From: Puia sp. | GTDB lineage: Bacteria; Bacteroidota; Bacteroidia; Chitinophagales; Chitinophagaceae | Assembly (NCBI GenBank): GCA_031292515.1 | Contig: JARLGZ010000177.1 | Span: forward strand, 1-64,000 | Direction of reading: 5' to 3' | DNA: 64,000 bases | Part shown: piece by piece, positions 2,634-33,306 of the stretch | Layout: the number at the start of each line of letters is the position of its first letter | Numbering within the stretch: the first letter of the stretch is position 1 | Made by a program: the position numbers and the translations under genes | The notes under the pieces: model-generated | Told to the model about the DNA's origin: nothing | The model's input: the letters and a program-made list of their open reading frames with translations, nothing else | Databases searched by the model: none

Positions 2634-5222
2634 CTAAGCGCTATTCCTCGCCGCATTGATAATCCCAAAGGAACTCCGGATGATCAGCTTTTCATAGACT
2701 TCCTTCATCGACTTGTTTTCGCCGCTCTTTTCGAGTTGCTGGAACTTTGTGAGGGCATATTGCTGAAGCGTACTTAGCGGCAGCACAATCCGCTCGCGCA
2801 TCTGTATGGACAATTGCTCCACGGGATAATCGGCCATCAGCTCATTCTTGCCGGTGAGCTTAAAGATATATTTCTGCGTGAGTTCGTATTCCTTATAAAT
2901 CAGGTTCCATATTTCGCCGTAGACCGGGTGATCGGAATAATGCTCCGTCAGCGGGAAGAAGCACTTCTTCATAGCCATCTCACAGTTGTCGAGCAGCGTC
3001 CGGAAAAAGAGCGAATTATCATACAGATGCTTCACCTCCTCCCATCGCCCCCTCTTGTCCATCGCCTGCAGCGCCTTTCCTACGCCATAGTAACCGGTGA
3101 CGTTTTGCTTTAACTGGCTCCAGGCGCCGACATACGGAATGGCCCGGAGATCCTTTAGCTCCAGCTTGCCGGCACTCTTCCGTCTCGAAGGACGGCTGGC
3201 GATATTCGTTTCATTATAGAACCGCAACGGACTGATCTCGTTAAGATACTCCAAAAAATAAGGGTGGTCCTTCAACGCCGAATAAGCCTTGTAGCTGTCT
3301 ACCGAAAGCTGTTGCAGCAACTCCTCCTCATCGGCCTGCAACGTAACCTCTTTCGAAGAGAACAGGTCGTTGGAGATACCCGCATGGACCATCTGCTCGA
3401 TATTGTATTGCGCCGTATCGACAGTCCCAAAATTCGAACTCACCGTCTGACCCTGAATGGTCAGCTGGATCTCTTTATTGGAGATATTCCTGCCCATCGA
3501 AGCATAAAACTTGTGCGTCTTGCCCCCACCCCTCGCCGGCGGGCCGCCCCGTCCATCGAAGAATACCACGTCGATCCCATATTCCTTCGAAATACTCGTC
3601 AGCTCTTCCTTGGCCTTGTAGATGCTCCAGTTGGCCATCAGGTAACCCCCGTCCTTGGTACCATCGGAAAAACCCAGCATGATGGTCTGTTTGTTGTTCC
3701 GGCCCTGCAGATGTTTTTTGTAGACCTTATTGGTATAGAGCTCCTGCATGATAGCCGCCGCATGCTGCAAATCGTCCACCGTCTCGAACAACGGCACGAT
3801 ATCGATCGTCATCTTATCCTTTTTCCATCCGCTGATCAGAAAAAGGCCAAAGACCTCCAGGACATTCAGCGCGCTATTGCACTGGCTGATGATATAACGG
3901 TAGCACCCCTGCTCTCCGTTGGCCCGTTGAATGGACCGGATCGAAGCGATCGTTTCCAGCGTGTCTTTGACCAGCTTGTCCTCGTACAATTCGGGATGGG
4001 CCGATCCGCTCAACCCCGTGAGCACCGCCATCTTCTCCTTGTCATCGAGCGATGCGTAGTTCTCAGGCACGAGCTTGTCTTTGGCGGCAACGGCGACCAG
4101 CACGTTTTGATGGACCGTGCTCTCCTGCCGGATATCCAGCGTGGCGAAATGCAGACCAAACGCCTGTACTTTGTTGATCAGGTTGTCCAGGAGATGCAGG
4201 AATAAGCTGTTATGCTGGTAGATCAGGATCTCCCGGATCTGCAGCAGCGGCGATAACACCTCCTGCGCATTCAGATCTGTCGTGTGCTCCGGTATGAAAA
4301 TATTATTGTATAATTTCTCCTCGAGATCCGCCAGGATCGTATCCACTCCCTTGAAGGTCAATCGCCGCTTCAGCCTCCTTACATCCAGGTAATAACATTT
4401 GATGATGGCGCCCCGCAAGGCCTCCGCCACCTTCTTCGTGATATCCACCGTCACAAAGGGATTGCCATCGCGGTCCCCGCCCGGCCAGAAACCCATCTTA
4501 ATCACCGCGTTGTTCTTATCGATCGCATCGGGAAACTGGTTCTGTAAAGAAGAGAGAATCTTGCCGCAAGCCTGGTAAAAGACATTTTCCAGGTACCAGA
4601 CCAGGCTGATCGCCTCATCATACGGCGTCGGCTTTTGCTTTTTCAGGAAAGGGGTCTTCCCCAACTGCTGCAAATAGAGGTTGATCTGCCCCGCATTATT
4701 CTCTATCACGGCCCTCGACAGATCATTGATGATCCCGAGCACCGGGCCGGGATAGAACTGCGTGGGATGCGCCGTCAACACCATCAGTACCGAATAGTCC
4801 TTAAGCTTCTCCGTTAGCGCCTCCTCCTTCCCCGTCTGTATCACCTCGGACAGGAGGTGTTTGAGCGTCCCCGCTCCGCCCATGTCGTTCACGTCCCGGA
4901 AAGCGGCATCCTCCAGCGCATCGAACAGGACGATCTGTCTTTCCACATATTGCACAAACCGGAACAGGATATCCGCCCGTTCCCTTTCTTTCATATAGGT
5001 AGTATGCTTCTCGAAAAACTCTTCGATGATCTGCCCGGGACTCTGCTTTTTCTTATAACCCTCCTCGCAGATGGTAAGCAGCAGGGAAAGAAGAATACCC
5101 GTTTTCTCGATCCGGTGAAAAGGGAGCGAAGTGAACAGACTGTTATATAGCTGAAACTTGATCCCAACGAGGTTTTTAAATTGCTGCAACCCCTGGGACG
5201 ACTGGTAACTCATAAAACTCAT
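2634..5222 (-). CDS. ppc: phosphoenolpyruvate carboxylase
   Basis: 862 residues, the expected size for PEP carboxylase, which carboxylates PEP to oxaloacetate with bicarbonate and replenishes the citric acid cycle. Visible hallmarks are VLTAHPTQ near residue 148 (bicarbonate/PEP site), GFWPGGDRDGNPFVT near 243, GFSDGTKDGGYLMANW near 522 and FFDGRGGPPARGGG near 552, the catalytic glycine-rich loop. The C-terminus FGIINAARNSA is typical of the Bacteroidota form. The start codon at 5220-5222 is followed by a second ATG three codons later, so a slightly shorter start is possible. The gene diverges from the threonine operon; both feed from and into the oxaloacetate/aspartate node, so the pairing is metabolically coherent. 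Confidence 0.95.
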   Translation of the reverse strand: MSFMSYQSSQGLQQFKNLVGIKFQLYNSLFTSLPFHRIEKTGILLSLLLTICEEGYKKKQSPGQIIEEFFEKHTTYMKERERADILFRFVQYVERQIVLFDALEDAAFRDVNDMGGAGTLKHLLSEVIQTGKEEALTEKLKDYSVLMVLTAHPTQFYPGPVLGIINDLSRAVIENNAGQINLYLQQLGKTPFLKKQKPTPYDEAISLVWYLENVFYQACGKILSSLQNQFPDAIDKNNAVIKMGFWPGGDRDGNPFVTVDITKKVAEALRGAIIKCYYLDVRRLKRRLTFKGVDTILADLEEKLYNNIFIPEHTTDLNAQEVLSPLLQIREILIYQHNSLFLHLLDNLINKVQAFGLHFATLDIRQESTVHQNVLVAVAAKDKLVPENYASLDDKEKMAVLTGLSGSAHPELYEDKLVKDTLETIASIRSIQRANGEQGCYRYIISQCNSALNVLEVFGLFLISGWKKDKMTIDIVPLFETVDDLQHAAAIMQELYTNKVYKKHLQGRNNKQTIMLGFSDGTKDGGYLMANWSIYKAKEELTSISKEYGIDVVFFDGRGGPPARGGGKTHKFYASMGRNISNKEIQLTIQGQTVSSNFGTVDTAQYNIEQMVHAGISNDLFSSKEVTLQADEEELLQQLSVDSYKAYSALKDHPYFLEYLNEISPLRFYNETNIASRPSRRKSAGKLELKDLRAIPYVGAWSQLKQNVTGYYGVGKALQAMDKRGRWEEVKHLYDNSLFFRTLLDNCEMAMKKCFFPLTEHYSDHPVYGEIWNLIYKEYELTQKYIFKLTGKNELMADYPVEQLSIQMRERIVLPLSTLQQYALTKFQQLEKSGENKSMKEVYEKLIIRSSFGIINAARNSA

Positions 5223-5318
5223 TTAAAATCGTTCAATAATCTTGCCTGATAAGCAGCAATCGCTCAAAATATCCGTCCAAAATACTCCATTTTTATTAAA
5301 AAAAAGGGCGATCTGTTA

Positions 5319-5345
5319 TTTTTCTCGCGACATTCCTTACCTTAG
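5319..5345 (+). promoter_or_regulatory. candidate promoter of the threonine operon
   Basis: TACCTTAG at 5338-5345 departs by one base from the Bacteroidota -7 consensus TAnnTTTG. The upstream TTATTTTT stretch lies near the expected -33 position but has no good TTTG. Transcription would begin about 5352, just ahead of the threonine leader peptide. Confidence 0.35.
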
Positions 5346-5359
5346 CGCTCCAATTTACA

Positions 5360-5458
5360 GTGGTTTATAAAAAACAAAATATTGTCTCCTCCTCTCCTGC
5401 CGTAGCGACACATTTCGCTGCGCAAATTACAATTATTACCACCATCACAACCCGTTAA
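5360..5458 (+). CDS. thrL: threonine/isoleucine-rich leader peptide (thr attenuator)
   Basis: A 32-codon frame ending at TAA 5456-5458 finishes with ITIITTITT-R: nine consecutive codons at 5426-5452 are only Thr (five) and Ile (four). The run mirrors the E. coli thrL logic, where Thr and Ile tRNA charging sets attenuation of thrABC. It lies 150 bp upstream of thrA on the same strand. The only conventional in-frame initiator is GTG at 5360, very close to the predicted transcript start; no ATG is available, so the start is uncertain. The hairpin 5447-5465 begins inside the Thr codons, so a ribosome stalled there would prevent it folding. What is seen is the codon run and its position; attenuation is inferred. 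Confidence 0.7.
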   Translation: MVYKKQNIVSSSPAVATHFAAQITIITTITTR

Positions 5459-5586
5459 GGGTTGTACATTTCCATATTATTCCCTGGGCTATTTCAGCTA
5501 TCCTCAAAAAAAAGAGACGGTGTGCACCTAAACGGCCACCAGCGCTGACCCACAAAAAATGACCGGCATCAAAACCGGTGTTTCTT
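5447..5586 (+). promoter_or_regulatory. attenuator hairpins of the thr leader
   Basis: ACAACCC (5447-5453) pairs with GGGTTGT (5459-5465) around the leader stop codon. Nearer thrA, ACCGG (5562-5566) can pair with CCGGT (5575-5579) and is followed by GTTTCTT, a weak terminator-like arrangement 25 bases before the thrA start. The spacing fits a pause-hairpin/terminator attenuator, though the terminator stem is short. Confidence 0.5.
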
Positions 5587-5610
5587 AAAAATCCTAAAAC
5601 CAGCTATATT

Positions 5611-8055
5611 ATGCAGGTTCTGAAATTCGGAGGTTCTTCCGTAGCCAATGCTGATAATATCAATAAAGTCGTTCAGATCGTGAGCCGAGCCCTCCCAAAA
5701 GACAAAACCGTCGTGATCGTATCGGCGCTGGGAGGCATTACCGATATCCTGATCCAGGCCGGGACCCTGGCAGCGGCCGGCGACGAATCCTATAAAGAGA
5801 AATTGCAGGTGGTGGAACACCGGCATCTCGAAGCGGTAAAAAGCCTGCTGCCCCTGACACGCCAAAGCGCGGTGCTCAGCCTCGTAAAGAAACGCTGCAA
5901 CGAAATAGAAGACATCTGCAACGGCATCTTTCTGCTGGGCGAACTATCCCCCCGTACAAAAGACAAAGTGGTCAGCTACGGTGAACTCCTGTCCTCCCAG
6001 ATCATCGCGGCGAAGTTTTCTGCCCTCGAGATCTCAAATGCCTGGAAAGACAGCCGGGAACTCATCGTCACCGACTCCCAATTCGGCTATGCCACCGTCG
6101 ACTTCCCCCTGACCAATCAGAAGGTCCGGGAATATTTCAACGCTGCCCACGAAAACCTCTTCATCCTGCCCGGCTTTATAGCGGCTGACAAGAACGGCAC
6201 CACCACCACCCTCGGCAGGGGCGGTTCCGATTATACGGCAGCCATCATCGCAGCGGCTGTCGACGCCACCCTGGCCGAGATCTGGACCGATGTATCCGGC
6301 ATGATGACCGCCGATCCCAGACTGGTCTCCAATGTGAAGCTGATCCCGCACATCTCTTACCAGGAAGCCATGGAATTGTCGCATTTCGGAGCCAAAGTGA
6401 TCTATCCCCCCACCATCCAACCGGTGATGAGCAAAGGCATCCCCGTCTGGATAAAGAATACATTTGCCCCCGAAGACCCGGGCACCGTCATCGAGAACGC
6501 CTCCTCCCGCGTCAATGGCAGCATACGCGGCATCTCCAGCGTCGGAAAGATCGCCTTGCTGAGCCTGGAAGGAAGCGGCATGGTCGGTATCCCCGGCTTC
6601 TCAAAACGCCTCTTCGAAGCCCTCTCCAATGAGAAGATCAATGTCATCCTCATCACACAAGGCTCCTCGGAACACTCGATCTGCGTGGGCATCGACGAAG
6701 CCAACGCGCCCCGCGCAAAAGAATCCGTCGACCGCGCCTTCAACCATGAAATAGAAACCGGCAAGACCGAACCCCTGATCATCGAAAAAGGCCTCTCGAT
6801 TATCGCCCTCGTCGGCGACCATATGAAAAGTCACCCCGGTATCAGCGGACGACTGTTCGGCGCACTGGGAAGAAACGGCGTAAACGTCAGGGCCATCGCA
6901 CAGGGATCCTCCGAACGGAATATCTCCGCCGTCATCGCAGCCGACGATGTCAAAAAAGCAATCAACATCTTACATGAAGAATTTTTTGAAACAACTTATA
7001 AGCAATTGAACCTCGTCATAACAGGCACCGGCAACGTAGGCAGCCGACTGCTGGAACAACTAAAGCAACAGCAGCAATACCTGCAGACCCACCTCCGCCT
7101 GCACGTCAATGTCGTCGGTCTGGCCAACAGCAAGAAGATGCTTTTCCGCGAAGAAGGGATCGATCTCCACAACTGGAAAGAACAACTGCAGGGCGGCCAC
7201 GACATGGACCTGGAGGAATGGATACGCATCACCCGCTCGGTAAACCTCCGTAATACGGTCTTCGCCGACGTCACTGCCAACCAGCACGTAGCTTCACTCT
7301 ATGACCGGCTATTGCCAAAGAGCATCTCGGTAGTGGCCTGCAATAAGGTCGCCTGCTCTTCTCCCTATCATTATTATAAGAAGCTTAAGGATCAGGCCCG
7401 GGAATACAACACGCTGTTTCTCTTTGAAACGAACGTTGGCGCGGGGCTGCCCGTGATCGGCACCCTCAACGACCTGCTTCGCAGCGGCGACAAAGTGCAC
7501 AGGATCGAAGCCGTCCTTAGCGGAACCCTTAACTTCGTATTCAATAACTACAACGGCGAAAAGAAATTTGCCGACGTAGTACGCCAGGCGCAGGAAGAAG
7601 GCTACACCGAACCCGATCCCAGACTGGACCTCAGCGGGACCGACGTCATGCGTAAGATCATGATCCTGGCCCGTGAAGCCGGCGAGAAAATGGAAATGGA
7701 AGACATCGGCAACACCCACTTCATGCCCGCCTCCTGCATGACGGGAAGCGTGGAAGATTTCTATGCGGCCATGGCGAAAGAAGAAGACCATTTTAAAAAA
7801 CTCTACCACGAGGCTGCGTCGGCAGGGAAAAAGCTGAAATTCGTCGCCCGGTTCGAAAATGGGAAGGCCGCCGTCGGTCTGCAGCATATCGATCCGCAGC
7901 ATGATTTCTATCACCTATACGGCAAAGACAATGTTGTGCTCTTTTATACCGAACGCTATTCCGAACAACCCCTCGTCATCAAAGGCGCGGGTGCGGGCGC
8001 AGAAGTGACCGCGTCGGGTGTCTTCGCAGACATCATCCGGGCAGGAAGAGTGTAG
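5611..8055 (+). CDS. thrA: bifunctional aspartokinase / homoserine dehydrogenase
   Basis: 814 residues from ATG 5611 (a few in-frame codons upstream, from 5578, overlap the attenuator). The N-terminal kinase domain begins MQVLKFGGSSVA, the classic aspartokinase motif, with GRGGSDYTAA near residue 205. ACT regulatory repeats follow (about 310-455; SSEHSICVGI and SSERNISAVI), and then the NAD(P)-binding homoserine dehydrogenase domain beginning VITGTGNVGSRLL near 468, with GTLNFVFNNY and EEGYTEPDPRLDLSGTDVMRK carrying catalytic Asp/Lys residues. It phosphorylates aspartate and reduces aspartate semialdehyde to homoserine. It heads the thrA-thrB-thrC order and is probably controlled by the leader peptide upstream and by threonine binding to the ACT domains. 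Confidence 0.96.
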   Translation: MQVLKFGGSSVANADNINKVVQIVSRALPKDKTVVIVSALGGITDILIQAGTLAAAGDESYKEKLQVVEHRHLEAVKSLLPLTRQSAVLSLVKKRCNEIEDICNGIFLLGELSPRTKDKVVSYGELLSSQIIAAKFSALEISNAWKDSRELIVTDSQFGYATVDFPLTNQKVREYFNAAHENLFILPGFIAADKNGTTTTLGRGGSDYTAAIIAAAVDATLAEIWTDVSGMMTADPRLVSNVKLIPHISYQEAMELSHFGAKVIYPPTIQPVMSKGIPVWIKNTFAPEDPGTVIENASSRVNGSIRGISSVGKIALLSLEGSGMVGIPGFSKRLFEALSNEKINVILITQGSSEHSICVGIDEANAPRAKESVDRAFNHEIETGKTEPLIIEKGLSIIALVGDHMKSHPGISGRLFGALGRNGVNVRAIAQGSSERNISAVIAADDVKKAINILHEEFFETTYKQLNLVITGTGNVGSRLLEQLKQQQQYLQTHLRLHVNVVGLANSKKMLFREEGIDLHNWKEQLQGGHDMDLEEWIRITRSVNLRNTVFADVTANQHVASLYDRLLPKSISVVACNKVACSSPYHYYKKLKDQAREYNTLFLFETNVGAGLPVIGTLNDLLRSGDKVHRIEAVLSGTLNFVFNNYNGEKKFADVVRQAQEEGYTEPDPRLDLSGTDVMRKIMILAREAGEKMEMEDIGNTHFMPASCMTGSVEDFYAAMAKEEDHFKKLYHEAASAGKKLKFVARFENGKAAVGLQHIDPQHDFYHLYGKDNVVLFYTERYSEQPLVIKGAGAGAEVTASGVFADIIRAGRV

Positions 8056-8379
8056 TGCGACCAGATATAGTGCGACGATCGACCGCGGTGCCCCGGTACG
8101 ATCCTCTCCGGTACCGCAGGCAGGCCACACGTAAGCCGTTACAGGCATGCGATTACTGGGGATGGATTATCGTGAATGTGAATGGGCTATTGTGAATGGA
8201 TTGTCGCAGAGGGTGTATGTGTTTTTCCGGCTAAAAAACGATTTACCAGTAAATCGTTTTTTTTCAAAAAAAAGACTTACCCCATCCAGGGACGATCGTT
8301 CGGAACCGATCTCGCCGAACCAAATCGAAGCCTGACCAAATCGGAGCCGACCCCAATTGAAAACGACAAACAAAGAATT
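8056..8379 (+). other. thrA-thrB intergenic region with direct repeats
   Basis: A 324-bp gap, long for an operon. It holds an imperfect repeat around 8166-8202 (attatcgtgaatg / attgtgaatgg), the terminator-like hairpin at 8233-8264, and a 16-base direct repeat of ACCAAATCG-AGCC type around 8317-8352. The thrB frame stays open upstream to 8182, but this part encodes low-complexity residues and is unlikely to be translated. Confidence 0.5.
8233..8264 (+). terminator. strong terminator-like hairpin inside the thr operon
   Basis: AAAAAACGATTTAC (8233-8246) and GTAAATCGTTTTTT (8249-8262) form a perfect 14-bp stem with a two-base loop, ending in a run of eight T. It sits between thrA and thrB and could reduce or end transcription after thrA, or be a processing site. 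Confidence 0.55.
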
Positions 8380-9315
8380 ATGAAAGAAATAACCATACAG
8401 GCCCCTGCAACCGTCGCCAACCTGGTTTGCGGATTCGACGTCCTCGGCATGGCCCTGGAACAACCGTATGATAAGATGACGGTGCGGCTGCTCGACAAAC
8501 CGGAAGTGATCATCACCAGCCTCGATGGATTCCCGCTTCCTACCGACCCTGCGCTCAATACGGCCGGCGCTCCCCTTCTGGCGATGCTGGAGGAACCGGA
8601 TCTGCCCGGCGGCCCCGTAGGATTCGAAGTCCTGATCAGCAAACAGATCAAGCCAGGCAGCGGCATCGGTTCCAGCGCCGCCAGCGCCGCGGGCGCCGTG
8701 GTCGCCGCCAACCATCTCCTGGGGAACATCTTCAGCAAGGAAGACCAGGTGCGATTCGCCCTTTTCGGAGAGAAAGTCGCCTCCGGCGTCAAACACGCCG
8801 ACAATATCGCCCCCTGCATCTATGGAGGCATTACCCTGATCCGCTCGATCTTCCCCCTGGATATCATCTCCATCCCGGCACCCCCCCTCCACGTGACGGT
8901 GGTGCACCCCCAGATAGAAGTACGCACCTCCGATGCCCGGCAGATTCTTCGAAAAGAGGTGCTTTTGAAAGACGCGATCCGCCAATGGGGCAATATCGGC
9001 GGTCTCGTGGCGGGCTTTATAAAAAGCGACTATGAGCTGATCGGCCGTTCCCTGGAAGACGTCATCATCGAGCCCGTACGCAGCATGCTGATTCCAGGCT
9101 TCGACGAAGTCAAACAGCAATGCAAGGAAGCAGGCGCCCTGGGCGGTGGCATTTCAGGTTCGGGCCCCTCTATCTTTATGCTGAGCAAAGATGCGGTGAC
9201 CGCCCGGCGGGTGGAACAGGTCATGAAGGCGATCTACGAACGAATCGGCCTGGCCTATCACACCTACGTCACGGTCGTCAACCAGGAAGGCGTGAAAATA
9301 GTGAGTAGTCAGTAG
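8380..9315 (+). CDS. thrB: homoserine kinase
   Basis: 311 residues from the ATG at 8380 (MKEITIQAPATVANLVCGFD), which is the family's usual N-terminus. It is a GHMP kinase: the ATP-binding loop is seen as PGSGIGSSAASAAGAVVAAN near residue 90, and the C-terminal motif GGGISGSGPSIFML near 255. It phosphorylates homoserine with ATP in the fourth step from aspartate semialdehyde to threonine. It lies between thrA and thrC on the same strand. The last codons and the stop fall in a tandem AGTCAGT repeat, so the C-terminal VSSQ is probably not conserved. Confidence 0.95.
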   Translation: MKEITIQAPATVANLVCGFDVLGMALEQPYDKMTVRLLDKPEVIITSLDGFPLPTDPALNTAGAPLLAMLEEPDLPGGPVGFEVLISKQIKPGSGIGSSAASAAGAVVAANHLLGNIFSKEDQVRFALFGEKVASGVKHADNIAPCIYGGITLIRSIFPLDIISIPAPPLHVTVVHPQIEVRTSDARQILRKEVLLKDAIRQWGNIGGLVAGFIKSDYELIGRSLEDVIIEPVRSMLIPGFDEVKQQCKEAGALGGGISGSGPSIFMLSKDAVTARRVEQVMKAIYERIGLAYHTYVTVVNQEGVKIVSSQ

Positions 9316-9325
9316 TCAGTAGTGA
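9303..9325. repeat. heptamer tandem repeat across the thrB stop codon
   Basis: The unit AGTCAGT recurs about three times (GAGTAGTCAGTAGTCAGTAG) and contains the thrB stop TAG at 9313-9315. As seven is not a multiple of three, copies supply stops in several frames. Confidence 0.6.
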
Positions 9326-9355
9326 CCACCTAAAACTTAATAATATCTTTATAAC

Positions 9356-10678
9356 ATGAAGTATTACTCCCTCAACGATCCGGAAGCGAAAGCGGAAACC
9401 AGCTTCAGGGACGCCACCATCCGGGGACAGGCGCCCGATAAAGGGCTCTATTTCCCGGAACGGATCCCGGCTTTGCCAAAAGACCTGATCGAAAATATAA
9501 CAAGGTACACAAAAGAAGAAATCGCCCTGCGGGTCATCAGCCCCTACGTGGGAGATACCCTCCCCGCGGGAGAACTGGAGAAGATCGTTGCAGAGACCGT
9601 CAATTTCGAATTCCCGTTGGTGAAACTCGACGACCGCACCTGGTCCCTCGAACTCTTTCATGGCCCTACACTGGCCTTTAAAGACGTGGGCGCCCGATTT
9701 ATGAGCCGCTGTCTGGGCTATTTCGTCAGGGGCAACGACCAGCCCGTGACGGTTCTGGTAGCGACTTCGGGAGATACGGGGGGCGCCGTCGCAAACGGCT
9801 TCTATGGAGTGGAAGGGGTCCGCGTCGTAATCCTCTACCCGTCCGGCAAAGTCAGCAGCGTCCAGGAATTGCAGTTGACCACCCTCGGTAAGAATATCAC
9901 CGCCCTGGAAGTCGATGGCACTTTCGACGACTGCCAGCGTCTCGTCAAACAGGCATTCGGCGACCCGGGATTGAATAAAGAACTGTTCCTGACTTCCGCC
10001 AATTCCATCAACGTAGCCCGCTGGTTACCACAACAATTCTATTACCTGTTCGCCTATAGCCAGTGGGTACAGACGCTCGGGAAGAAGGAAGCGCCCGTCT
10101 GGTCGGTCCCAAGCGGCAACTTCGGGAATATCTGCGCCGGATTGCTGGCTCACCGTTCCGGAATGCCCGCCAAACATTTCATCGCCGCCTGTAATGCCAA
10201 TAACACCATCCCGGATTTCCTGCAAACGGGTGCCTACAAGCCCAGAAAAGCCGTCCCGACGATCTCCAACGCCATGGATGTCGGCGATCCCAGCAATTTT
10301 GTCCGTATCCTGGAAATCTTTCATAAAGAGTTTACAGCCCTGAGCAACGTGCTTTCCAGCTCCAGCACCACCGACGAACAGACCCGGGTCGCGATCCGGA
10401 AGGTCTATACGGAAGCCCACTACCTGCCGGACCCGCACGGAGCAGTAGGCTGGCTGGCCCTGCAAGACTACCTTTCGTCCCATCCCGGAGACCGGGGAAT
10501 CTTCCTGGAGACGGCCCACCCGGTAAAATTCTATGACGTGGTGGAACCCATTATCGGGGAGAAAGTACCGATGCCCCCCATCGTCCAAAACCTCCTGGGC
10601 AGGAAGAAACAAAGTGAAAAAATTTCGCCGGACTTCGGCCTCCTCAGGGATTTCCTGCGGGGAGAAAAGAGAAAATAA
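9356..10678 (+). CDS. thrC: threonine synthase
   Basis: 440 residues beginning MKYYSLNDP. A PLP-dependent enzyme converting O-phosphohomoserine to threonine. The N-terminal motif TSFRDATIRGQAPDKGLYFPE and the PLP-lysine context HGPTLAFKDVGARFM (Lys near residue 112) are clear, followed by the phosphate-binding SGDTGGAVANGFYG. Length matches the bacterial short/medium form. It begins 40 bp after thrB on the same strand, so thrB and thrC are likely co-transcribed, completing the pathway started by ThrA. Confidence 0.96.
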   Translation: MKYYSLNDPEAKAETSFRDATIRGQAPDKGLYFPERIPALPKDLIENITRYTKEEIALRVISPYVGDTLPAGELEKIVAETVNFEFPLVKLDDRTWSLELFHGPTLAFKDVGARFMSRCLGYFVRGNDQPVTVLVATSGDTGGAVANGFYGVEGVRVVILYPSGKVSSVQELQLTTLGKNITALEVDGTFDDCQRLVKQAFGDPGLNKELFLTSANSINVARWLPQQFYYLFAYSQWVQTLGKKEAPVWSVPSGNFGNICAGLLAHRSGMPAKHFIAACNANNTIPDFLQTGAYKPRKAVPTISNAMDVGDPSNFVRILEIFHKEFTALSNVLSSSSTTDEQTRVAIRKVYTEAHYLPDPHGAVGWLALQDYLSSHPGDRGIFLETAHPVKFYDVVEPIIGEKVPMPPIVQNLLGRKKQSEKISPDFGLLRDFLRGEKRK

Positions 10679-16037: not shown

Positions 16038-17300
16038 TTATTGTATTCCATCGGCTTGTCTCGCAAAAATGTTAATCGTTCCATCTGATCCGATAAAATC
16101 CGCCAGCTCGCCTGCGATCCGCTTATTAGCATCCCTGGTAAAATGACAATAATCGACAAAAGTCCAGCCAGGCCAGTCATGGACACCGGACATGTTCTGA
16201 ATATGAAGGTCATTCTTTGAGATCATCCCAATGCTGTCATAGACCTTCTTTAAAAAAAAGGGCTTGTATTTGTCTGCTTTCTCTTCCTCGAGGTAATGGG
16301 TCAGGGCTTGTTCTTCTGCCGAAAGCATCGAGGAATTTCTAAAGGGTAGATAGGGCTGGACTAAAAAAAGATATTTTCTCCCGTCTCGCCTCAGCCTGTC
16401 CTCAAAATGAAAGATCTCCCTGATAAATGACCTGCAGGAGTTATCGATCCGTCTATCCTCAAAATTCATTAAAAAGGGTGTCGTCTTCCGATCCAGCCAG
16501 AATTTCCTTTCAGGAAACCCCCTTGTCTCATTTCTATGCATCCTCGCCCTGAGCCTTATATAATAAAGTTCCTGCTTGAGCATGCCAAAAAAAGCAGAGT
16601 GCTGTGTGATGGGGACAATGAAATTCATAGGGAACCTGTGAAAAGAGGAACTCTCCCACTCCCAATATTTCCGGTTGTATTCCCTTTCAAGCCCCTCCCG
16701 GCTATCCTCCAATGTATCGCATTCATTTACGCCATCCATCGAGATCACCCAATCGAAATCACAACTCTTTGACAGTGATTCATATCTTTTATAACTCTGG
16801 TTGATCGTGAACCCGGAGACGGCGGCATTGAACACCCTCACATTTTTTGAGGGATACTTTTTTTGAAGAAGTCCCTGAAGATAAAATGCTATATTTTCAG
16901 TATAAGGGTGATCCGGTATATTCGTGATATCGAACCATGCTCCATTTTTATTGGAGCCCATACCCTCCATCGCAGAACCGCCCATCAGCAACACCCACAA
17001 ATCTTCCCTTTTCTTCCGGGGAAACGAGAAATCTCCACAGGCCGATTTCATTCCCTTTTCATTGTATTGAAACCTCTTTTCATAGTCCACATAATAAGCC
17101 CTGTTGTTATAGACACTCGCGGAATCGTCCTCCTGCAAAGGCCCCCCTTGTATGTAGACACTCGTATGCAAGCCCCGGAATTTAAAATAAAAAAAAAGCC
17201 TGAAAACTCCTTCAGCCAACAGCAAAGAAAACAAAAGGGAAAAAACAGAGAATTTTAACAACTTTTTTTTGCCCCATGTCCCGGTCTTGCTATTGCTCAT
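16038..17300 (-). CDS. membrane-anchored SGNH-hydrolase family protein
   Basis: 420 residues if started at ATG 17298-17300, which overlaps the end of the carbamoyltransferase gene by 11 bases (translational coupling). A single N-terminal transmembrane segment (KFSVFSLLFSLLLAEGVFRLFFYF) is followed by an extracytoplasmic SGNH domain: LLMGGSAMEGMGS (nucleophile Ser), NAAVSGFTINQS (Gly), MDGVNECD (Asn) and, near the end, VDYCHFTRDANKRIA (D-x-x-H). All four blocks look intact, so an active esterase or acyl/carbamoyl transferase on a surface molecule is likely. It belongs to the carbamoyltransferase cassette. Confidence 0.75.
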   Translation of the reverse strand: MSNSKTGTWGKKKLLKFSVFSLLFSLLLAEGVFRLFFYFKFRGLHTSVYIQGGPLQEDDSASVYNNRAYYVDYEKRFQYNEKGMKSACGDFSFPRKKREDLWVLLMGGSAMEGMGSNKNGAWFDITNIPDHPYTENIAFYLQGLLQKKYPSKNVRVFNAAVSGFTINQSYKRYESLSKSCDFDWVISMDGVNECDTLEDSREGLEREYNRKYWEWESSSFHRFPMNFIVPITQHSAFFGMLKQELYYIRLRARMHRNETRGFPERKFWLDRKTTPFLMNFEDRRIDNSCRSFIREIFHFEDRLRRDGRKYLFLVQPYLPFRNSSMLSAEEQALTHYLEEEKADKYKPFFLKKVYDSIGMISKNDLHIQNMSGVHDWPGWTFVDYCHFTRDANKRIAGELADFIGSDGTINIFARQADGIQ

Positions 17301-19209
17301 GCTTAAAGATAATAATATTATCCAGCACCAATATATCCATTTCCGTACTCTTAAAACAACGATAGGCTTCTTCCGGCGTGCAGACCACGGGCTCACCCCT
17401 CACATTGAAACTGGTGTTGATAAGCATTCCGTTACCGGTCAACGACTCGAACGCCTTGAGCAGCCCCCAAAGCCTTGAATTGCTTTTACGGGAAACGGTT
17501 TGAACGCGGCTGGAAAAATCGACATGGGTTATCGCGGGAAACAGACTCCTCACAACATTCAGCTTCTCCATTACCGTCAGTTGCGGGTAGCCATCCGGGA
17601 GTGCCTTCCGAAAATTTTTATTCAGCGGCCGGGTCAAAAGCATATAAGGAGACGGTACTGCCAGGCCGAAATAATCCCGCGCCTTTTCCTCCAGACATAC
17701 CGGGGCAAAAGGCCGGAATCCTTCCCTGTATTTTATATGGAGGTTCAGCTTTCTCTGCATATCCGCACTCCCCGGATCCGCCAGTATGCTCCTGTTTCCA
17801 AGGGCGCGGGGACCGAATTCCATTTGGCCCTGGAACCAGCCTACGATCTTGCCGTCCCGCAATTGCGCCGCTATGATCGCAGCCAATTCATCACGGTCGT
17901 CATACTCATGAAAAACCGCTTTTTGATCCCTGCACATTTTCCTGACTTCTTTTATCGTAAAGGCCGGCCCCAGATAGCAGTTGCGCATGGGATCTCCATC
18001 GCCGAAAAGTTCCGCCCTACCCGGAATCTCCTTGTCACCAAACGACTCTCCGCCAGCCGGAACCCCCGCTCGGCCCGGAAACCCCCTGTCGCCATTGCCC
18101 CCCGAAAAATCTTCCCGGCGTTCTTTTCCAAAATAGATATGATAAGCCGCCAGGGCCGCCCCTAAGGCTCCTCCCGCATCGCCTGCCGCAGGCTGGATAT
18201 ATATATTCTTAAAGATAGCCGCATCCAGCAATTTCCCGTTGGCGACGCAATTGAGCGCGACGCCACCCGCCATACATATATTTTCCATCCCCGTAAGCCT
18301 TCGCGCAGTGGCAGCCAGGCGGAGTACGATGTCTTCCGTCACCCGTTGTATGGCCAGCGCGAGATTGCAATAACCGGGATCGAGGGCGGATTCGGGTGGG
18401 CGCGGCGACATCCCGAAGAGGCTTCTCCACTTTCCTTCCTTCACCATCCGAAGGCCCGATATATAATTAAAATATTCCTGGTGTAAGAACAGGGAACCGT
18501 CGTCATACACCGTAACCAGGTGAGACCTTATCTTCTCCACGAACTCTTTAAACTGCGGGGAAGTCTCGTCGCCGTAAGGAGCCAGCCCCATCAATTTGTA
18601 TTCGCCCGAATTCACCTTGAAGCCGCAATAATAGGTGAAGGCTGAATACAGGAGCCCCGGTGAATGGGGGAACCTGATCTCCTTCAGCAGAGAGAGATCC
18701 TTCCCCCTCCCCTTCCCGATCGAGGTGGTAGCCCATTCTCCAACCCCGTCGATCGTCAATATCGCGGCCTCCTGGTAGGGAGACACATAAAAAGCGCTGG
18801 CGGCATGCGATAAATGATGCTCGCAAAACAACAACCGGAGCTTTTTTTTATCGAAAGATTGCAACTGATAGAGCTCATCCCGGATCACTTTTTTGAGCAG
18901 CATTTTCTGCTTCATCCAGACCGGCATCGACCGGAGGAACGAGCGGAGCCCCCTGGGCGCCGTCGCGTGATAGGATTCGAGGATTCTCTCCAGTTTCAAC
19001 AGCGGCTTATCATAGAACACCACCGCATCCAGTTCGTCGATGGCGACCCGGGCAAACTCCAGGCAAAAACGTATCGAATGGATGGGAAAAGAAGGATCGT
19101 TCTTGATCCGGGTGAATCTCTCTTCCTGTGCTGCGGCGACTACCTGTCCGTTCCGGATGATCGCAGCAGCCGAGTCGTGAAAAAAAGCAGAGATCCCAAG
19201 TATAACCAT
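17290..19209 (-). CDS. carbamoyltransferase (NodU/CmcH/TobZ family)
   Basis: 639 residues beginning MVILGISAFFHDSAAA, the classic family N-terminus. The Kae1-like domain carries EHHLSHAASAFYVSP (metal-binding His) near residue 130 and GGVALNCVANGKLL near 315, and the C-terminal carbamoyl-phosphate-binding domain carries EFGPRALGNRSILADP and NTSFNVRGEPVVCTPEEA. The enzyme class uses carbamoyl phosphate and ATP to carbamoylate hydroxyl groups on sugars or secondary metabolites. An unusual glycine-rich, collagen-like insertion (about residues 364-408, DNA 17986-18120) separates the two domains. It leads the SGNH/DUF5989/SxtJ cassette and lies where rpoC would be expected after rpoB. The acceptor molecule is not evident. 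Confidence 0.9.
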   Translation of the reverse strand: MVILGISAFFHDSAAAIIRNGQVVAAAQEERFTRIKNDPSFPIHSIRFCLEFARVAIDELDAVVFYDKPLLKLERILESYHATAPRGLRSFLRSMPVWMKQKMLLKKVIRDELYQLQSFDKKKLRLLFCEHHLSHAASAFYVSPYQEAAILTIDGVGEWATTSIGKGRGKDLSLLKEIRFPHSPGLLYSAFTYYCGFKVNSGEYKLMGLAPYGDETSPQFKEFVEKIRSHLVTVYDDGSLFLHQEYFNYISGLRMVKEGKWRSLFGMSPRPPESALDPGYCNLALAIQRVTEDIVLRLAATARRLTGMENICMAGGVALNCVANGKLLDAAIFKNIYIQPAAGDAGGALGAALAAYHIYFGKERREDFSGGNGDRGFPGRAGVPAGGESFGDKEIPGRAELFGDGDPMRNCYLGPAFTIKEVRKMCRDQKAVFHEYDDRDELAAIIAAQLRDGKIVGWFQGQMEFGPRALGNRSILADPGSADMQRKLNLHIKYREGFRPFAPVCLEEKARDYFGLAVPSPYMLLTRPLNKNFRKALPDGYPQLTVMEKLNVVRSLFPAITHVDFSSRVQTVSRKSNSRLWGLLKAFESLTGNGMLINTSFNVRGEPVVCTPEEAYRCFKSTEMDILVLDNIIIFKHEQ

Positions 19210-19225
19210 AATCGTGACAGTTCAG

Positions 19226-19256
19226 AAAAAAGCCACCCCGGGGTACCGGGATGGCT
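19226..19256 (-). terminator. rpoB terminator
   Basis: An 11-bp stem with one G-U pair (19231-19241 with 19246-19256, loop of four) is followed on the minus strand by six T. It lies about 65 bp after the rpoB stop and 17 bp before the carbamoyltransferase start. Confidence 0.75.
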
Positions 19257-19321
19257 AGTATTGCTCATTAGTTAGCGGAGATCCTTGTCAGAATCAGCCG
19301 AACGATATCCGTCGTCCTGGC

Positions 19322-22300
19322 CTAGTCGAACTTCAGGTCCAGACCCAATCCTCTCAATTCATGCACAAGCACGTTAAAGGATTCCGGAATACCCGCCCTG
19401 GGAATATTATCACCCTTGACGATGGCCTCATAGGTCTTCGCACGACCGATAATATCATCGGATTTGAGGGTGAGCAATTCCTGCAGGATATTCGAGGCAC
19501 CATAGGCTTCGAGGGCCCACACTTCCATTTCCCCGAAACGCTGGCCACCGAACTGGGCTTTACCACCCAATGGCTGCTGCGTGATCAGGCTGTATGGCCC
19601 GATACTCCTCGCATGCATCTTATCGTCGACCATATGGTGAAGCTTGATAAAGTAGATGATCCCCACCGTCGCCTTCTGATGGAAACGGTCACCCGTTTCG
19701 CCATCATACACATAGCTGTGACCAAAGCTCGGCAGACCTGCTCTTTCAATATGCTCGGCGATTTCCTCAACCGTAGCCCCGTCGAAGATCGGGGTGGCAA
19801 AACGGAGACCCAGTTTCTCACCGGCCCATCCGAGTACGGTTTCATAAATCTGACCCAGGTTCATACGGGAAGGTACCCCGAGCGGATTCAAAACGATATC
19901 CACCGGTGTCCCGTCTTCCAGGAAAGGCATGTCCTCCGCACGGAGGATCTTGGCGACAATACCCTTGTTTCCGTGACGACCGGCCATCTTATCCCCTACC
20001 TTCAACTTGCGCTTGACGGCCAGGTAAACCTTGGCTAGCTTCAATACGCCCGCCGGCAATTCATCCCCGATGGAGATATTGAATTTTTCTCTTTTATAGC
20101 GGCCCAGCTCTTCGTTATACTTGATGCTGTAATTATGCAGGAGAATATTGATCAGGTCATCGGTCTTGGCATCACCCGTCCAACCCAGGGGGTTGACGTT
20201 CAGGTAATCGATACCCGCCAGGTTCTTGGCGGTGAACTTAGCGCCCTTGCCGATCTGTACTTCCCCGAAGTTGTTGTTGACGCCGGCAGAAGCATGGTCC
20301 TTCAACAGCACCAGCAACTTGCTCAGCAGCACGTCCATCAGGTCGGTCACATTCTTCTCGTGGACCTTTTCTATCTTCTCGAGCGAAGCCTTCTCACGGA
20401 CCTTCGCATTCTTATCTTTCTTCGCACGCTGGAACAGCTTTTTGCTGATCACCACGCCTTCCGTACCGCTCGGAGCCTTAAGGGATGCATCTTTGGCATC
20501 TCCTGCCTTGTCGCCGAAGATGGCGCGGAGCAACTTCTCTTCCGGGGTGGGATCGCTTTCGCCTTTGGGCGTGATCTTACCGATCAGGATATCGCCTTCC
20601 TTGATCTGGGCGCCGACACGGATGATACCGTTCTCGTCGAGATCCTTCGTGGCTTCTTCCGATACGTTGGGGATATCGGGCGTCAGTTCTTCCTCACCCA
20701 GCTTGGTATCACGAACTTCCAGCTCATACTCGGAGATATGCACGGAGGTGAAGAGATCCTCGCGGACCACTTTCTCGCTGATGACGATGGCATCCTCGAA
20801 GTTGTAACCCTTCCAGGGCATGAAAGCCACTTTCAGGTTGCGGCCAAGCGCCAGCTCACCATCCTGCACGGCATATCCTTCCGTCAGGAAGTCGCCTTCC
20901 TTAACCTTCTGTCCTTTCTTAACGGCAGGCTTCAGGTTGATACAGGTCTCCTGGTTCGTCTTGATGAATTTCGTGAGCCTGTAGATCTTCAGGTCCTCTT
21001 CGAAGCTGACCAGCTTCTGCGTTTCATTCCTGTCGTAACGGACATGGATCTCATTGGCATCCACAAACTCCACCACGCCTTCTCCTTCGGAATGGATCTG
21101 GATACGCGCGTCACGGGCGGCTTTCGCCTCGAGACCGGTACCGACGATCGGCATTTCCGGACGGATCAGGGGTACGGCCTGGCGCTGCATGTTCGATCCC
21201 ATCAACGCACGGTTGGCATCATCATGCTCCAGGAAGGGAATCAGCGAAGCGCTCAACCCGACGATCTGGTTGGGCGCCACGTCCATATATTCTACTTCAT
21301 TCTTGTCGAGGATGGGAAAATCTCCGGTCTGACGCGAAACGATCTTCTCTTCCACGAAATTGCCTTTATCATCCATCGGAATATTCGCCTGGGCGATCTT
21401 GGCGATATCTTCCTCTTCGGCGCTCAGGTAAGTCAGCTTCTTCAGATCGACCTTTCCGTCATGAACCTTGCGGTACGGCGTCTCGATAAAGCCCATTTCA
21501 TTGATCTTCGCGTGCACGCACAGCGTAGAGATCAGCCCGATATTCGGACCTTCCGGCGTCTCGATGGTACACAAACGACCATAGTGGGAATAGTGTACGT
21601 CACGGACTTCAAAACCGGCACGCTCACGGGAGAGACCGCCTGGCCCGAGCGCGGAGATACGACGCTTGTGCGTAATCTCACTCAGGGGATTGGTCTGATC
21701 CAGGAATTGCGACAGCTGGGAAGTTCCGAAGAAGGAGTTGATCACCGAAGACAGGGTCCTGGCATTGATCAGGTCCACCGGGGTGAACACCTCGTTATCA
21801 CGCACGTTCATACGTTCGCGGATGGTCCTGGCCATACGGGCAAGACCCACGCCGAACTGGGCATACAACTGCTCACCCACCGTACGGACGCGGCGATTGC
21901 TCAGGTGATCGATATCGTCGATTTCGGCTTTGGCATTGGTCAAACGCACGAGATACTTGATGATATTGATCATATCTTCCTTGGTCAGCGTCTTCTGATC
22001 CAGGGGCTGGTTCAGGTTGAGTTTGCGGTTGATCTTATAACGGCCAACCTCGCCCAGGTCATAGCGCTTATCGCTGAAGAATAATTTATCGATGATCCCC
22101 CTGGCGGTCTCGTCATCCGGGGCATCCGCACCGCGCAACTGGCGGTAGATATGCTGAACGGCTTCGAGCTCCGAGTTGGAGGTATCCTTATTCAAGGTAT
22201 TATAGATGATGGCATAGTCACCGCCGACATCCTCTTTCTGTACGAACACGCTCTTCACATCCATTTCCACCACCATATCGATGGCCTCTTCGTCCAGAAT

Positions 22301-23125
22301 GGTATCGCGCTCCAGCACGATCTCGTTACGCTCGATAGACACGACCTCACCGGTATCCTCATCCACGAAATCCTCAACCCAGGTCCTGAGTACGCGGGCA
22401 GCCAGCTTCTTGCCGATATATTTCTGCAATGCTTTTTTGTCCGCCTTCACTTCGTCGGCCATGCCGAAAAGCTCCAGGATGTCCTTGTCCGTCTCATAAC
22501 CGATCGAGCGGAGCAAGGTAGTGACCGGGAATTTCTTCTTACGGTCGATATAAGCATACATTACATTGTTGATGTCGGTGGCAAATTCCATCCAGGCTCC
22601 CTTGAAGGGAATGACCCTCGCCGAATAGATCTTCGTGCCGTTGGGGTGAATGGACTGGCCGAAGAAAACGCCCGGGGAACGATGCAACTGGGACACGACC
22701 ACACGCTCCGCTCCGTTGATCACGAAGGTGCCGCGGGGGGTCATATAAGGTATATTGCCCAGGAATACATCCTGTACGATCGTCTGGAAATCCACATGCT
22801 CCTCGTCGTTACAGCTCAAACGCAATTTTGCCTTCAGGGGAACCGCGTAAGTCAGCCCGCGCTCCATACACTCTTCGATCGTGTAACGGGGCGGATCGAT
22901 AAAGTAATCCAGGAATTCCAGCATGAAGATATTCCTCGTATCGGTGATCGGGAAATTCTCCTTGAACACCTTGAACAAACCTTCGATATTACGTTTGTCC
23001 GGGGTGGTCTCCAGCTGGAAAAATTCTTTAAAAGATTGGATCTGTACTTCGAGGAGGTCAGGAGTTTCGGCAAGATGCTTGATTTTACCGAAATTGATCC
23101 TGCTTTGAATTTTTGTTGAAGACAT
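19322..23125 (-). CDS. rpoB: RNA polymerase beta subunit
   Basis: 1267 residues from ATG 23123-23125 ([16 protein letters not shown]), the usual Bacteroidota length; upstream in-frame codons are untranslated leader. Landmarks include the rifampicin region [43 protein letters not shown], the active-site [38 protein letters not shown] and the C-terminal [17 protein letters not shown]. It is the large beta subunit of RNA polymerase. Remarkably, rpoC does not follow: a terminator and an unrelated carbamoyltransferase gene do. A consensus promoter and a 410-bp gap with its own rplL terminator precede it, so rpoB appears to be transcribed alone. Confidence 0.97.
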
Positions 23126-23280
23126 ATTTTTTAAACCCTGTTTTAATGATTCGTACTTCAAATAACTCCGCGGCAGGCGGACAAAAAACAACGTAAATCG
23201 GTGGTTTTCAGCAAGATATACTGTAACAGATAGTTGCACGATCAACCACCCTCTGCCAATCAGCTTAGGGAAACGGACGG

Positions 23281-23311
23281 CAAAGGTAGGAAATAAATAG
23301 CAATATCCAAT
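23281..23311 (-). promoter_or_regulatory. rpoB promoter
   Basis: Minus-strand TACCTTTG (plus 23281-23288) is a perfect Bacteroidota -7 box, with ATTG as -33 element (plus 23308-23311) at a 19-base spacer. Confidence 0.7.
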
Positions 23312-23351
23312 GGATCGAAGATCCATCCGGCGAAAATAAAAACTATGTCCA

Positions 23352-23460
23352 CGGACGATTCCCCCGGGACAAAAGTCCCCGTAAGAAACATCCGGCAATT
23401 AAAAAGTCCGAATAAACCGACGAATCGTCCGGGACAAAATCCCGGTGAGAAACATCCGGC
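23352..23460 (-). repeat. duplicated hairpin element upstream of rpoB
   Basis: Two copies (23352-23396 and 23419-23460, about 65 bp apart) share the pattern GAT/AATC-CCGGGAC-AAAA-GTCCCGG-(T)GAGAAACATCCGGC with a short internal hairpin (CCGGGAC/TCCCGG). They lie between the rplL terminator and the rpoB promoter. Confidence 0.6.
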
Positions 23461-23485
23461 CACTGGAGAAACAGAATTAACGGAT

Positions 23486-23512
23486 GAAACCCCGATAAAA
23501 TATCGGGGTTTC
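23486..23512 (-). terminator. hairpin ending the rplKAJL transcript
   Basis: GAAACCCCGATA (23486-23497) and TATCGGGGTTTC (23501-23512) form a perfect 12-bp stem with a three-base loop, 27 bp after the rplL stop. The T run is limited to the three in the stem. Confidence 0.6.
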
Positions 23513-23538
23513 GGAATTCCTTTCCCGGAACGGAAAGC

Positions 23539-23916
23539 TTACTGAACTTCTACTTCGGCGCCGGCTTCTTTCAGCTTGGCTACCAATGCATCAGCATCAG
23601 CTTTGCTTACACCTTCCTTAACGGGCTTCGGAGCGCCGTCAACGAGGTCCTTCGCTTCTTTCAGACCCAGACCAGTCAGGTCCTTAACGATCTTCACAAC
23701 GTTCAGTTTGTTAGGACCGCTGGCTTTCAGAATCACGTTGAAAGCAGTCTTTTCTTCAGCGACGGGAGCTCCGCCAGCCGCAGGACCGGCGGCAACAGCT
23801 ACAGCTGCAGCAGCAGGCTCGATGCCGTATTCTTCTTTAAGGATCTTTGCCAGTTCGTTTACTTCTTTTACAGTCAAGCCTACCAGCTGTTCTGCAAATG
23901 CTTTTAAATCTGCCAT
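23539..23916 (-). CDS. rplL: 50S ribosomal protein L7/L12
   Basis: 125 residues: the N-terminal dimerisation helix region [24 protein letters not shown], an Ala/Gly-rich hinge (about 36-53) and the globular domain [44 protein letters not shown]. It forms the flexible ribosomal stalk that recruits translation factors. It follows rplJ by 86 bp, as expected, but the usual direct link to rpoB is interrupted by a terminator and a new promoter. Confidence 0.97.
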
Positions 23917-24002
23917 GTTTGTAAATTTTTTCCGCCTTCAGTTCCATCAGATTGAGGATCCGGCGGAGGGTTTAAAAAAATTATTGCAACTAAAAATATA
24001 CA

Positions 24003-24542
24003 CTAATTCGCAGCCGCTTCCGCCCTGCTTTCCAGGGCCTTGATCAGACCTGCCAGTTTGTTGCCCGCGTTCAGGCCACTGATGACATTCTTGGCAGGCG
24101 ATTGCAGCAGACCGATGATCTCGCCGATGAGATCGTGTTTGCTCTTCAAGCTTATCAACGCCTTCAGCTGGTCATTTCCTTCGTATACATCCCCGTCGAT
24201 GAAAGCCGCCTTCAGAACAGGCTTTTCACTATTGGCGTCCTTGCGGAACGAAGTGATGATCATTGCAGGCTCTTTCGCGTTTTCGGAGAACAGCAGGGCC
24301 GTTACGCCGTTAAGCGACTCGTATACCCCGGAAAACCGGTTGTTGTCCAGGCCTTCCAGCGCCTTCCTGATCAGGGTGTTCTTGGCAACCTTCATTTCTA
24401 CTTTTTTATCAAAGCAGATGCGGCGCAATTTGCTGATCTGAGCCACGCTGAGCGACTCGGTATTGGTAACATAGAAGTTATTGTATTGATTGAACTTGTC
24501 TTTCAACACTTCAATTACTTCATTTTTTTGATCTTTGGTCAT
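24003..24542 (-). CDS. rplJ: 50S ribosomal protein L10
   Basis: 179 residues from the ATG at 24540-24542 (MTKDQKNEVIEVLKDKF), the family-typical start; an upstream ATG at 24560 would add six residues. The N-terminal RNA-binding domain with NNFYVTNTESLSVAQISKLRR and KVAKNTLIRKALE is clear, as is the C-terminal helix that binds L7/L12 dimers. It anchors the ribosomal stalk and in many bacteria represses its own operon. It lies 60 bp after rplA in the order rplK-rplA-rplJ-rplL. Confidence 0.95.
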   Translation of the reverse strand: MTKDQKNEVIEVLKDKFNQYNNFYVTNTESLSVAQISKLRRICFDKKVEMKVAKNTLIRKALEGLDNNRFSGVYESLNGVTALLFSENAKEPAMIITSFRKDANSEKPVLKAAFIDGDVYEGNDQLKALISLKSKHDLIGEIIGLLQSPAKNVISGLNAGNKLAGLIKALESRAEAAAN

Positions 24543-24602
24543 AGCTCTTGTTTTTGTCATCCCGCCATGGACGGAACGGTTAAATCAAAATAGTTCTTCA
24601 GC

Positions 24603-25295: not shown

Positions 25296-25315
25296 TTCGT
25301 AATTTTTTTAGATTG

Positions 25316-25759: not shown

Positions 25760-25851
25760 GTTGCTTCAATTTTTGGTGTTAACGTCCCTCGCCGACCGGC
25801 GAAAAACTCCCAAATCCAATAAAAAAATAAAGAACTCTCTATTTGGGGTCG

Positions 25852-25882
25852 CAAAGGTAAGATAAAAATGAAAAGAAACAAA
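25852..25882 (-). promoter_or_regulatory. rplKAJL promoter
   Basis: Minus-strand TTTG (plus 25879-25882), a 19-base spacer and TACCTTTG (plus 25852-25859): an exact Bacteroidota promoter 93 bp before rplK. Confidence 0.8.
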
Positions 25883-26500: not shown

Positions 26501-26551
26501 GCCATAATCTCCCATTTCATTCTGATAACATCTTAAAACGCTCAACACACT

Positions 26552-26911: not shown

Positions 26912-26940
26912 TCGAATAAAGCTGATCGTATAAATAAAAG

Positions 26941-26970
26941 AACCCTCCTTACCAGAGGGTTTTTATTTTT
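26941..26970 (+). terminator. terminator of the H1-like gene
   Basis: AACCCTC (26941-26947) pairs with GAGGGTT (26955-26961) and is followed by TTTATTTTT, 29 bp after the stop codon. Confidence 0.75.
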
Positions 26971-27010
26971 CAACCCGGACCTTGCAGGGTTCGCCTGCAG
27001 GGTTTCGGTA

Positions 27011-32978: not shown

Positions 32979-33306
32979 TTATCATTTCTAAACTCAGTTC
33001 TGAAAAGAGCTCCCCCCATCATCGCTTCCGACCAGGGCTAAACAGCAAACAATATGTATCCGCTGATTTTTTTTGGGAAGGCAAAGGTAAGCGAATTTGT
33101 TAAATTCAAAAATTTTGCCGTTCTTTTTTTCCTTTATTTCGACCAGTTTATGAAAATGAGTCGAATGCGGGGCAATATTATACAAAAAAAGAAGCCGCCC
33201 GGAAATTTTTTCAACCGGTGCGGCTTCTTTTTACATCATGTCCTGAAAAAAATGCTGTCTTTCCAGGGAGAAATCCCCTTCCGGAGAATCCCGAATTTTT
33301 TTTTGG
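32979..33306. other. hpf-tRNA intergenic region
   Basis: A 328-bp gap holding the hpf terminator (33185-33232) and, nearer the tRNAs, the place where a promoter for the tRNA-tuf transcript is expected: a minus-strand TTACCTTTGCC occurs at about 33080-33090 (TACCTTTG, plus CAAAGGTA 33081-33088), which matches the consensus -7 box. Confidence 0.6.
33185..33232 (-). terminator. hpf terminator (bidirectional)
   Basis: AAAAAGAAGCCG at 33185-33197 and CGGCTTCTTTTT at 33221-33232 form a long stem enclosing a smaller CCGG/CCGG pairing. A-T tracts on both flanks allow function on either strand. Confidence 0.75.

Follow-up and report, generated by a model that had tools for sequence, protein, structure and literature searches.

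How does a bacterium keep the beta and beta-prime subunits of its RNA polymerase in step when their genes, rpoB and rpoC, no longer lie together? Bacteria normally keep the two genes side by side in one operon. The question is raised by a 64,000 nt stretch of DNA from Puia sp. (Chitinophagaceae; assembly GCA_031292515.1), hereafter the window, which covers the first 64 kb of C33, one of the 285 contigs of a 7.34 Mb genome. It contains rpoB, and the next gene is a carbamoyltransferase gene. Our analysis confirms that the separation of rpoB and rpoC is real and biological. As to its consequence, we consider it rather probable that a regulon has replaced the operon, the two genes now being coupled through membership in a ribosome-type promoter class.

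The locus comprises the following features:

19322..23125 (-): rpoB, RNA polymerase beta subunit, 1267 aa; open reading frame (ORF) with the start set at MSSTKIQS, TIGR02013 equivalog
23275..23288 (-): predicted rpoB promoter of the ribosome-type class, TACCTTTGCCGTCC, from the genome pattern search and the sequence
23126..23276 (-): predicted rpoB 5' leader, ~151 nt, with the start site placed according to the -12 to -5 position of TAnnTTTG in Flavobacterium
19231..19256 (-): intrinsic terminator 3' of rpoB, an 11-pair GC-rich stem followed by TTTTT
23485..23513 (no strand): hairpin between rplL and rpoB, symmetrical, 13 pairs, with a weak T-run on the rpoB strand
23539..23916 (-): rplL, the gene 5' of rpoB, named by eye
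17290..19209 (-): carbamoyltransferase, the next gene after rpoB, with Pfam domains Carbam_trans_N and Carbam_trans_C

A preliminary description of this DNA had reported a full-length rpoB with an exact TAnnTTTG promoter in front of it and a GC-rich terminator and the carbamoyltransferase gene behind it. All of these were recovered: rpoB matches the NCBIfam rpoB model TIGR02013 with 1827 bits, the box TACCTTTG is found at 23288-23281 (-) with its first base 163 nt before the ATG, and the stem and T-run occupy 19256-19231. Of the rplL terminator that had been placed upstream of rpoB only the hairpin stands; the scan calls a terminator there on the plus strand only, not on the strand of rpoB.

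Location of rpoC and extent of the separation

A whole-genome search with the rpoC domain and the full protein found one rpoC only, an intact copy on contig C211 (236409-240704, minus strand), in line with the earlier expectation that it must lie elsewhere in the genome. The remaining 19.3 kb of C33 3' of rpoB, up to the contig start that is also the window start, contains no rpoC, and C211 ends 27 kb beyond the rpoC start. The congener G029 carries both genes on the same strand of a single contig, 50.6 kb apart from domain to domain, in the order rpoB, threonine genes, PEP carboxylase, a glutamate synthase region, isoleucine-leucine genes, gene F3 (515 aa, no Pfam match) and rpoC, with the middle genes named by eye. 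Because the genes at the ends of C33 and C211 occur in G029 between rpoB and rpoC in the same order, the two contigs very probably adjoin, and by this order rpoC would lie ~50 kb downstream of rpoB. The part of the interval that is contained in the window includes:

2634..10678 (no strand): PEP carboxylase and threonine genes (aspartokinase-homoserine dehydrogenase, GHMP kinase, threonine synthase), from Pfam

Counterparts of these genes are present in all five congener regions fetched, and G029 has them in the interval from rpoB to rpoC.

The preliminary description had named a misassembly as the finding that would overturn its reading. An artefact of this kind, with rpoB and rpoC truly adjacent, would suit an assembly of 285 contigs with the two genes on different ones, and the family sample described below contains one such case: in G054 a contig break falls inside rpoB and the rpoC contig begins with the last rpoB codons, so that this genome was counted as adjacent. 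For the window we regard the chance of an artefact as negligible, given the long stretches of other sequence on the facing sides (19.3 kb at rpoB and 27 kb at rpoC), the congeners and the split genomes assembled as a single contig (G049, G078, G130, G131 and G149, by position). Among 33 genomes of the genus, our own included, rpoC was found in 30 and rpoB in 28; the two genes are apart in all ten with both on one contig. In seven of these rpoC is on the rpoB strand, 31-60 kb away, and in three (G013, G024 and G030) it is on the opposite strand at 23-39 kb.

The separation extends well beyond the genus. Our family sample consisted of 146 Chitinophagaceae genomes at least 95% complete, 141 of them with both genes. 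By position, and after the correction of G054, rpoB and rpoC are adjacent in 85, near each other in 5 (domain gaps of 1.3-4.8 kb, with an insert of 1-4.5 kb) and apart in 51. In the 50 split genomes besides our own, at least one of the two genes has several kb of other sequence on the side facing its partner. A split genome occurs in 32 of 85 genera, and genus g57 holds both states. Among named records, Hydrotalea sandarakina DSM 23241, Flavihumibacter stibioxidans YS-17, F. cheonanensis WS16 and Pollutibacter soli JS81 lack rpoC within 10 kb downstream of rpoB, and in Chitinophaga alhagiae T22, C. polysaccharea 1209 and Paraflavitalea pollutisoli the two genes are adjacent. No rpoC remnant was seen beside rpoB in any of the 48 split genomes for which that stretch is sequenced. 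In two genomes, G069 (L201) and G148 (L205), an insert of 4-4.5 kb lies between rpoB and a short rpoC frame (1016 and 923 aa, respectively).

As a control for the class, 115 genomes outside the family and at least 97% complete were used, of which 112 have both genes; 109 are adjacent, one is near, and two, both of one genus, have the genes on different contigs. Two of the genomes scored as adjacent, G196 and G197, were counted from an rpoC piece beside rpoB, with second rpoC rows on other contigs omitted. In G197 (L257) the contig ends inside that piece and a longer one is found elsewhere, probably a contig-end effect; in G196 the piece overlaps a longer one on another contig. The two exceptions, G240 (L258) and G208 of genus g121, perhaps represent a second split group; G208 was scored by its contigs, and the stretch read after rpoB in G240 contains no rpoC. 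In Saprospiraceae/Saprospirales rpoC follows rpoB in all 14 loci with enough sequence, with 1.8-2.4 kb between them in two. A literature search that stopped short of most subscription journals found no published account of rpoB and rpoC being separate in Bacteroidota.

Compared with the rplKAJL-rpoBC (rif) operon of E. coli and most bacteria, rpoB is still preceded by rplK-rplA-rplJ-rplL here (ORF order in the window, names by eye, with homologous genes in relatives), whereas rpoC does not follow it directly: a terminator closes rpoB, and rpoC has a predicted promoter of its own. This terminator and the distance would argue against a joint transcript of the two genes. Other departures from the standard arrangement are of a different nature. 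In Helicobacter and Wolbachia rpoB and rpoC are fused, the opposite of the separation seen here; the beta/beta-prime models NF007172 and NF011417 were listed in the NCBIfam search, and our two genes are separate ORFs of 1267 and 1431 aa with no single fused frame. In cyanobacteria and plastids beta-prime is cut in two within the operon, as rpoC1 and rpoC2. The organisation of rpoC is altered there too, but in our case the gene is whole and has moved.

A promoter signature common to rpoB and the separated rpoC

To compare promoters between the two states, we examined 300 nt upstream of each gene in every split genome for which sufficient sequence was present and in one adjacent genome per genus. 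Before rpoB the TAnnTTTG box was found in 47/50 adjacent and 49/50 split genomes, with ~13.5 expected by shuffling in each. The own promoter that had been presented as part of what sets this rpoB apart is thus common to adjacent genomes, and since the box is equally frequent in both states, the rpoB promoter is unlinked to the split and was rejected as its cause. Before rpoC the picture differs: adjacent genomes have the box in 7/52 cases (6.4 expected), and split genomes in 43/48 (12.5 expected). The extended signature TAnnTTTGCnnnCY precedes rpoB in 45 of 50 adjacent and 42 of 50 split genomes. At rpoC it is present in 39/48 split genomes, with 0.24 expected by shuffling, in none of 52 adjacent ones and in one of the five near ones. 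In our genome the box of the rpoC promoter starts 150 nt before the ATG. The second change concerns the 3' end of rpoB, where a terminator-like hairpin with a T-run follows within 150 nt in 46/48 split genomes and 3/51 adjacent ones.

A stricter pattern, TACCTTTGCNNYCC, occurs at 18 sites in our genome, and its reverse at one. Fourteen of the 18 sites precede ribosomal, rRNA, tRNA-tuf, hflX, rpoB or rpoC genes, namely rpsT, rpsJ, rpsL, rpoB, rplK, a tRNA cluster with tuf, rplT, the 16S rRNA, hflX, rplM, rpsP, rplU, rpsF and rpoC; hflX and tuf were named by eye, and the rplT site lies 368 nt off with unnamed genes between. Of the remaining sites, one lies within a reading frame, 486 nt upstream of rplY, and three have no such gene. 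At L260 (G000:C18:22254) a gene without a Pfam match starts right after a ribosome-type promoter. Two of the 14 sites, besides that of rpoB, are located in the window, both from the pattern search:

25846..25859 (-): predicted rplK promoter, TACCTTTGCGACCC
33076..33089 (-): predicted promoter before a four-tRNA cluster and tuf, TACCTTTGCCTTCC

The signature precedes rplK in 20 of 22 loci. With a looser pattern, sites outnumber those of the control in G130 (56 vs 7), G104 (36 vs 11) and G149 (22 vs 6); this pattern marks rpoC in the split genomes G130 and G149, and rpoB only in the adjacent G104. According to a study of Flavobacterium psychrophilum, sigma-A promoters there have TAnnTTTG at -12 to -5, with three variants around this core (PMC9723704). 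The core box is thus shared between the Bacteroidota sigma-A promoter and the sites 5' of our rpoB and rpoC, and the C-N3-CY extension tied to ribosome and polymerase genes, described here from sequence, may equal one of the variants known from that source.

Taken together, these observations suggest that rpoB and rpoC are two independent transcription units. Transcription of rpoB would start at a ribosome-type promoter of its own, run through a leader of ~150 nt and end at the intrinsic terminator; rpoC, ~50 kb downstream if the congeneric order holds, would have a separate promoter of this class. With both promoters in the ribosome-type class, the output of the two genes is expected to rise and fall together with growth, and beta and beta-prime would be kept in step mainly by the promoter class that also serves the rRNA, tRNA-tuf and ribosomal protein genes. 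We infer that the TACCTTTGC sites are real start sites, that they are controlled by growth rate and that this control is sufficient for the balance of the subunits. The view of the preliminary description that separated genes need another form of coordination is borne out, and the common promoter class is its likely form.

Several points weigh against a coupling by promoter class. The exact signature is missing at 9/48 separated rpoC genes; by eye, near variants of it are present in G049, G131, G089 and G127, and none is present in the two genomes of genus g70. In the same comparison of 22 loci in which the figure for rplK was obtained, no such promoter was found directly before tuf, nusG, rplJ or rplL. 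The class is also not equally clear in every genus, as in the adjacent G036 the looser pattern and its reversed control give 9 sites each. The terminator comparison favours the split genomes; in adjacent genomes the space between rpoB and rpoC is small, with a median of 112 nt, and 24 of 46 such gaps contain hairpins of unusual stability that lack a T-run. Finally, free beta-prime might be balanced by degradation instead.

This last point leads to a neutral split, in which any promoter suffices and unassembled surplus beta or beta-prime is degraded. The interleaving of the two states on the trees described below fits such a process, as does the fact that the genes are intact save for contig-end cuts and the short rpoC of G069 and G148. 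A neutral split does not account for the one promoter class at 39/48 separated rpoC genes in most separate clades, when other TAnnTTTG boxes before genes in the same loci carry the C-N3-CY extension in 7 of 114 cases, a background that is lowered by possible chance matches among many of these sites. We therefore judge it to be improbable, and prefer the coupling by promoter class.

The reason why operons exist is an old question, and here a highly conserved pair has come apart. As related genera, and even members of genus g57, differ in state, they provide a natural experiment, adjacent against split, with or without the terminator and with or without the second promoter. In addition, the signature defines at the sequence level a ribosome-type class of Bacteroidota promoters, which makes the response of this class to growth rate and starvation testable.

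Leaders of rpoB and rpoC

The distance between the box and the ATG, with sites chosen within set ranges, has a median of 149 nt for 97 rpoB genes and 184.5 nt for 40 separated rpoC genes, and of 72 nt for 114 other genes. Examples of long rpoB leaders are found at L230, L250 and L228 and at 23126-23276 of the window. Such leaders could be the site of control themselves: the polymerase or a free subunit would bind the long rpoB and rpoC leaders and tune each message, while the promoter sets the range. A precedent is E. coli rpoBC, which has its own autogenous control (PMC10931766).

In two of four separately aligned groups, the structure of the rpoB leader is conserved with compensatory changes. 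Among 18 leaders 20 of 31 pairs are of this kind (z -9.7 vs column shuffles), and among 13 leaders 13 of 20 pairs (z -11.1), the latter group showing an attenuator-like stem followed by a T-run. Structured rpoC leaders were observed in 13 split genomes of one clade (8/22 pairs, z -22.6). The claim of structured leaders depends on these separate alignments; default alignments gave a weak structure for rpoB and, with 24 rpoC leaders, no structure. In the two remaining rpoB groups, of 24 and 11 leaders, the consensus structures are weak and were obtained without a control. Furthermore, the structured rpoB leaders come mostly from adjacent genomes, and the rpoB and rpoC structures are not visibly alike. 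A search of window positions 19000-27000 and eight loci against Rfam 15 gave no match above the gathering score. Leader-based control appears unlikely as the principal mechanism, while leaders may add to the control by promoter class.

A broader proposal would combine both elements: Chitinophagaceae would have dropped the rpoBC linkage in more than one third of the sampled genera and would balance the subunits in trans, by the ribosomal promoter class together with structured, polymerase-sensing leaders. We put this forward tentatively, as doubtful in its full form. If it were true, a freed rpoC could move, duplicate and diverge, as in the congener G004 with one rpoB and two rpoC.

History of the rpoC relocation

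In FastTree trees of rpoB, rpoC and both jointly, the split genomes are interspersed with the adjacent ones; some nodes are strongly supported, and backbone support is weak in places. The parsimony count of changes is 10 for both the concatenated and the rpoC tree, and 11 for the rpoB tree. A simple tally of independent splits was nevertheless rejected: the interleaved trees stand against a common F3 neighbour and alike leader starts. In at least 21 of the 51 split genomes, from several clades, rpoC lies 0.25-17.3 kb after gene F3 on the same strand, and in at least 11 adjacent genomes whose rpoC contig also has F3 the two genes are at least 143 kb apart, both among the matches listed. The rpoC leaders of two large clades also begin with much alike sequence. 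As rpoC follows F3 in several separate clades, not every split can be an independent event. They may go back to a single old relocation or duplication followed by different losses, or re-joining may have occurred.

A promoter already present at the landing site of rpoC was considered and rejected, as 0/18 loci have the signature within 900 nt after F3. These loci were taken from 15 adjacent genomes and three split ones with rpoC elsewhere; in two of the adjacent ones, G036 and G047, the surrounding genes point to a paralogue of F3. With no signature after F3 in 18 loci that lack rpoC, the promoter was probably not waiting there.

A single rpoB match and two distinct rpoC genes were found in the congener G004. 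Its contigs C8, C10, C15 and C19 (L307, L308, L329-L332) all end at the same point inside rpoC, two with the first half of the gene and two with the second; between the two copies these halves are 87% and 94% identical, the copies group together, and the pairing of first and second halves is ambiguous. The diverged first half on C19 keeps the NADFDGD motif and 319 of 361 family-invariant sites. It follows a response-regulator gene (by eye), and no TAnnTTTG box lies within 400 nt upstream of it. Since rpoC alone can thus duplicate in the genus, duplication followed by loss of the old copy is a concrete route of relocation, and rpoC may have moved in this way.

In the adjacent genome G047 (L213) the 533 nt gap between rpoB and rpoC contains an apparent remnant of an ORF6N-type gene (by eye). 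The end of its rpoC leader resembles that of split relatives, and the gap is a possible re-joining scar. Elsewhere in the window, the called ORFs of 26542-29486 are without counterparts in the five congener regions fetched; they lie between rplK and nusG and appear, partly by eye, to encode a lysine-rich protein, a sugar aminotransferase, a cupin and a glycosyltransferase.

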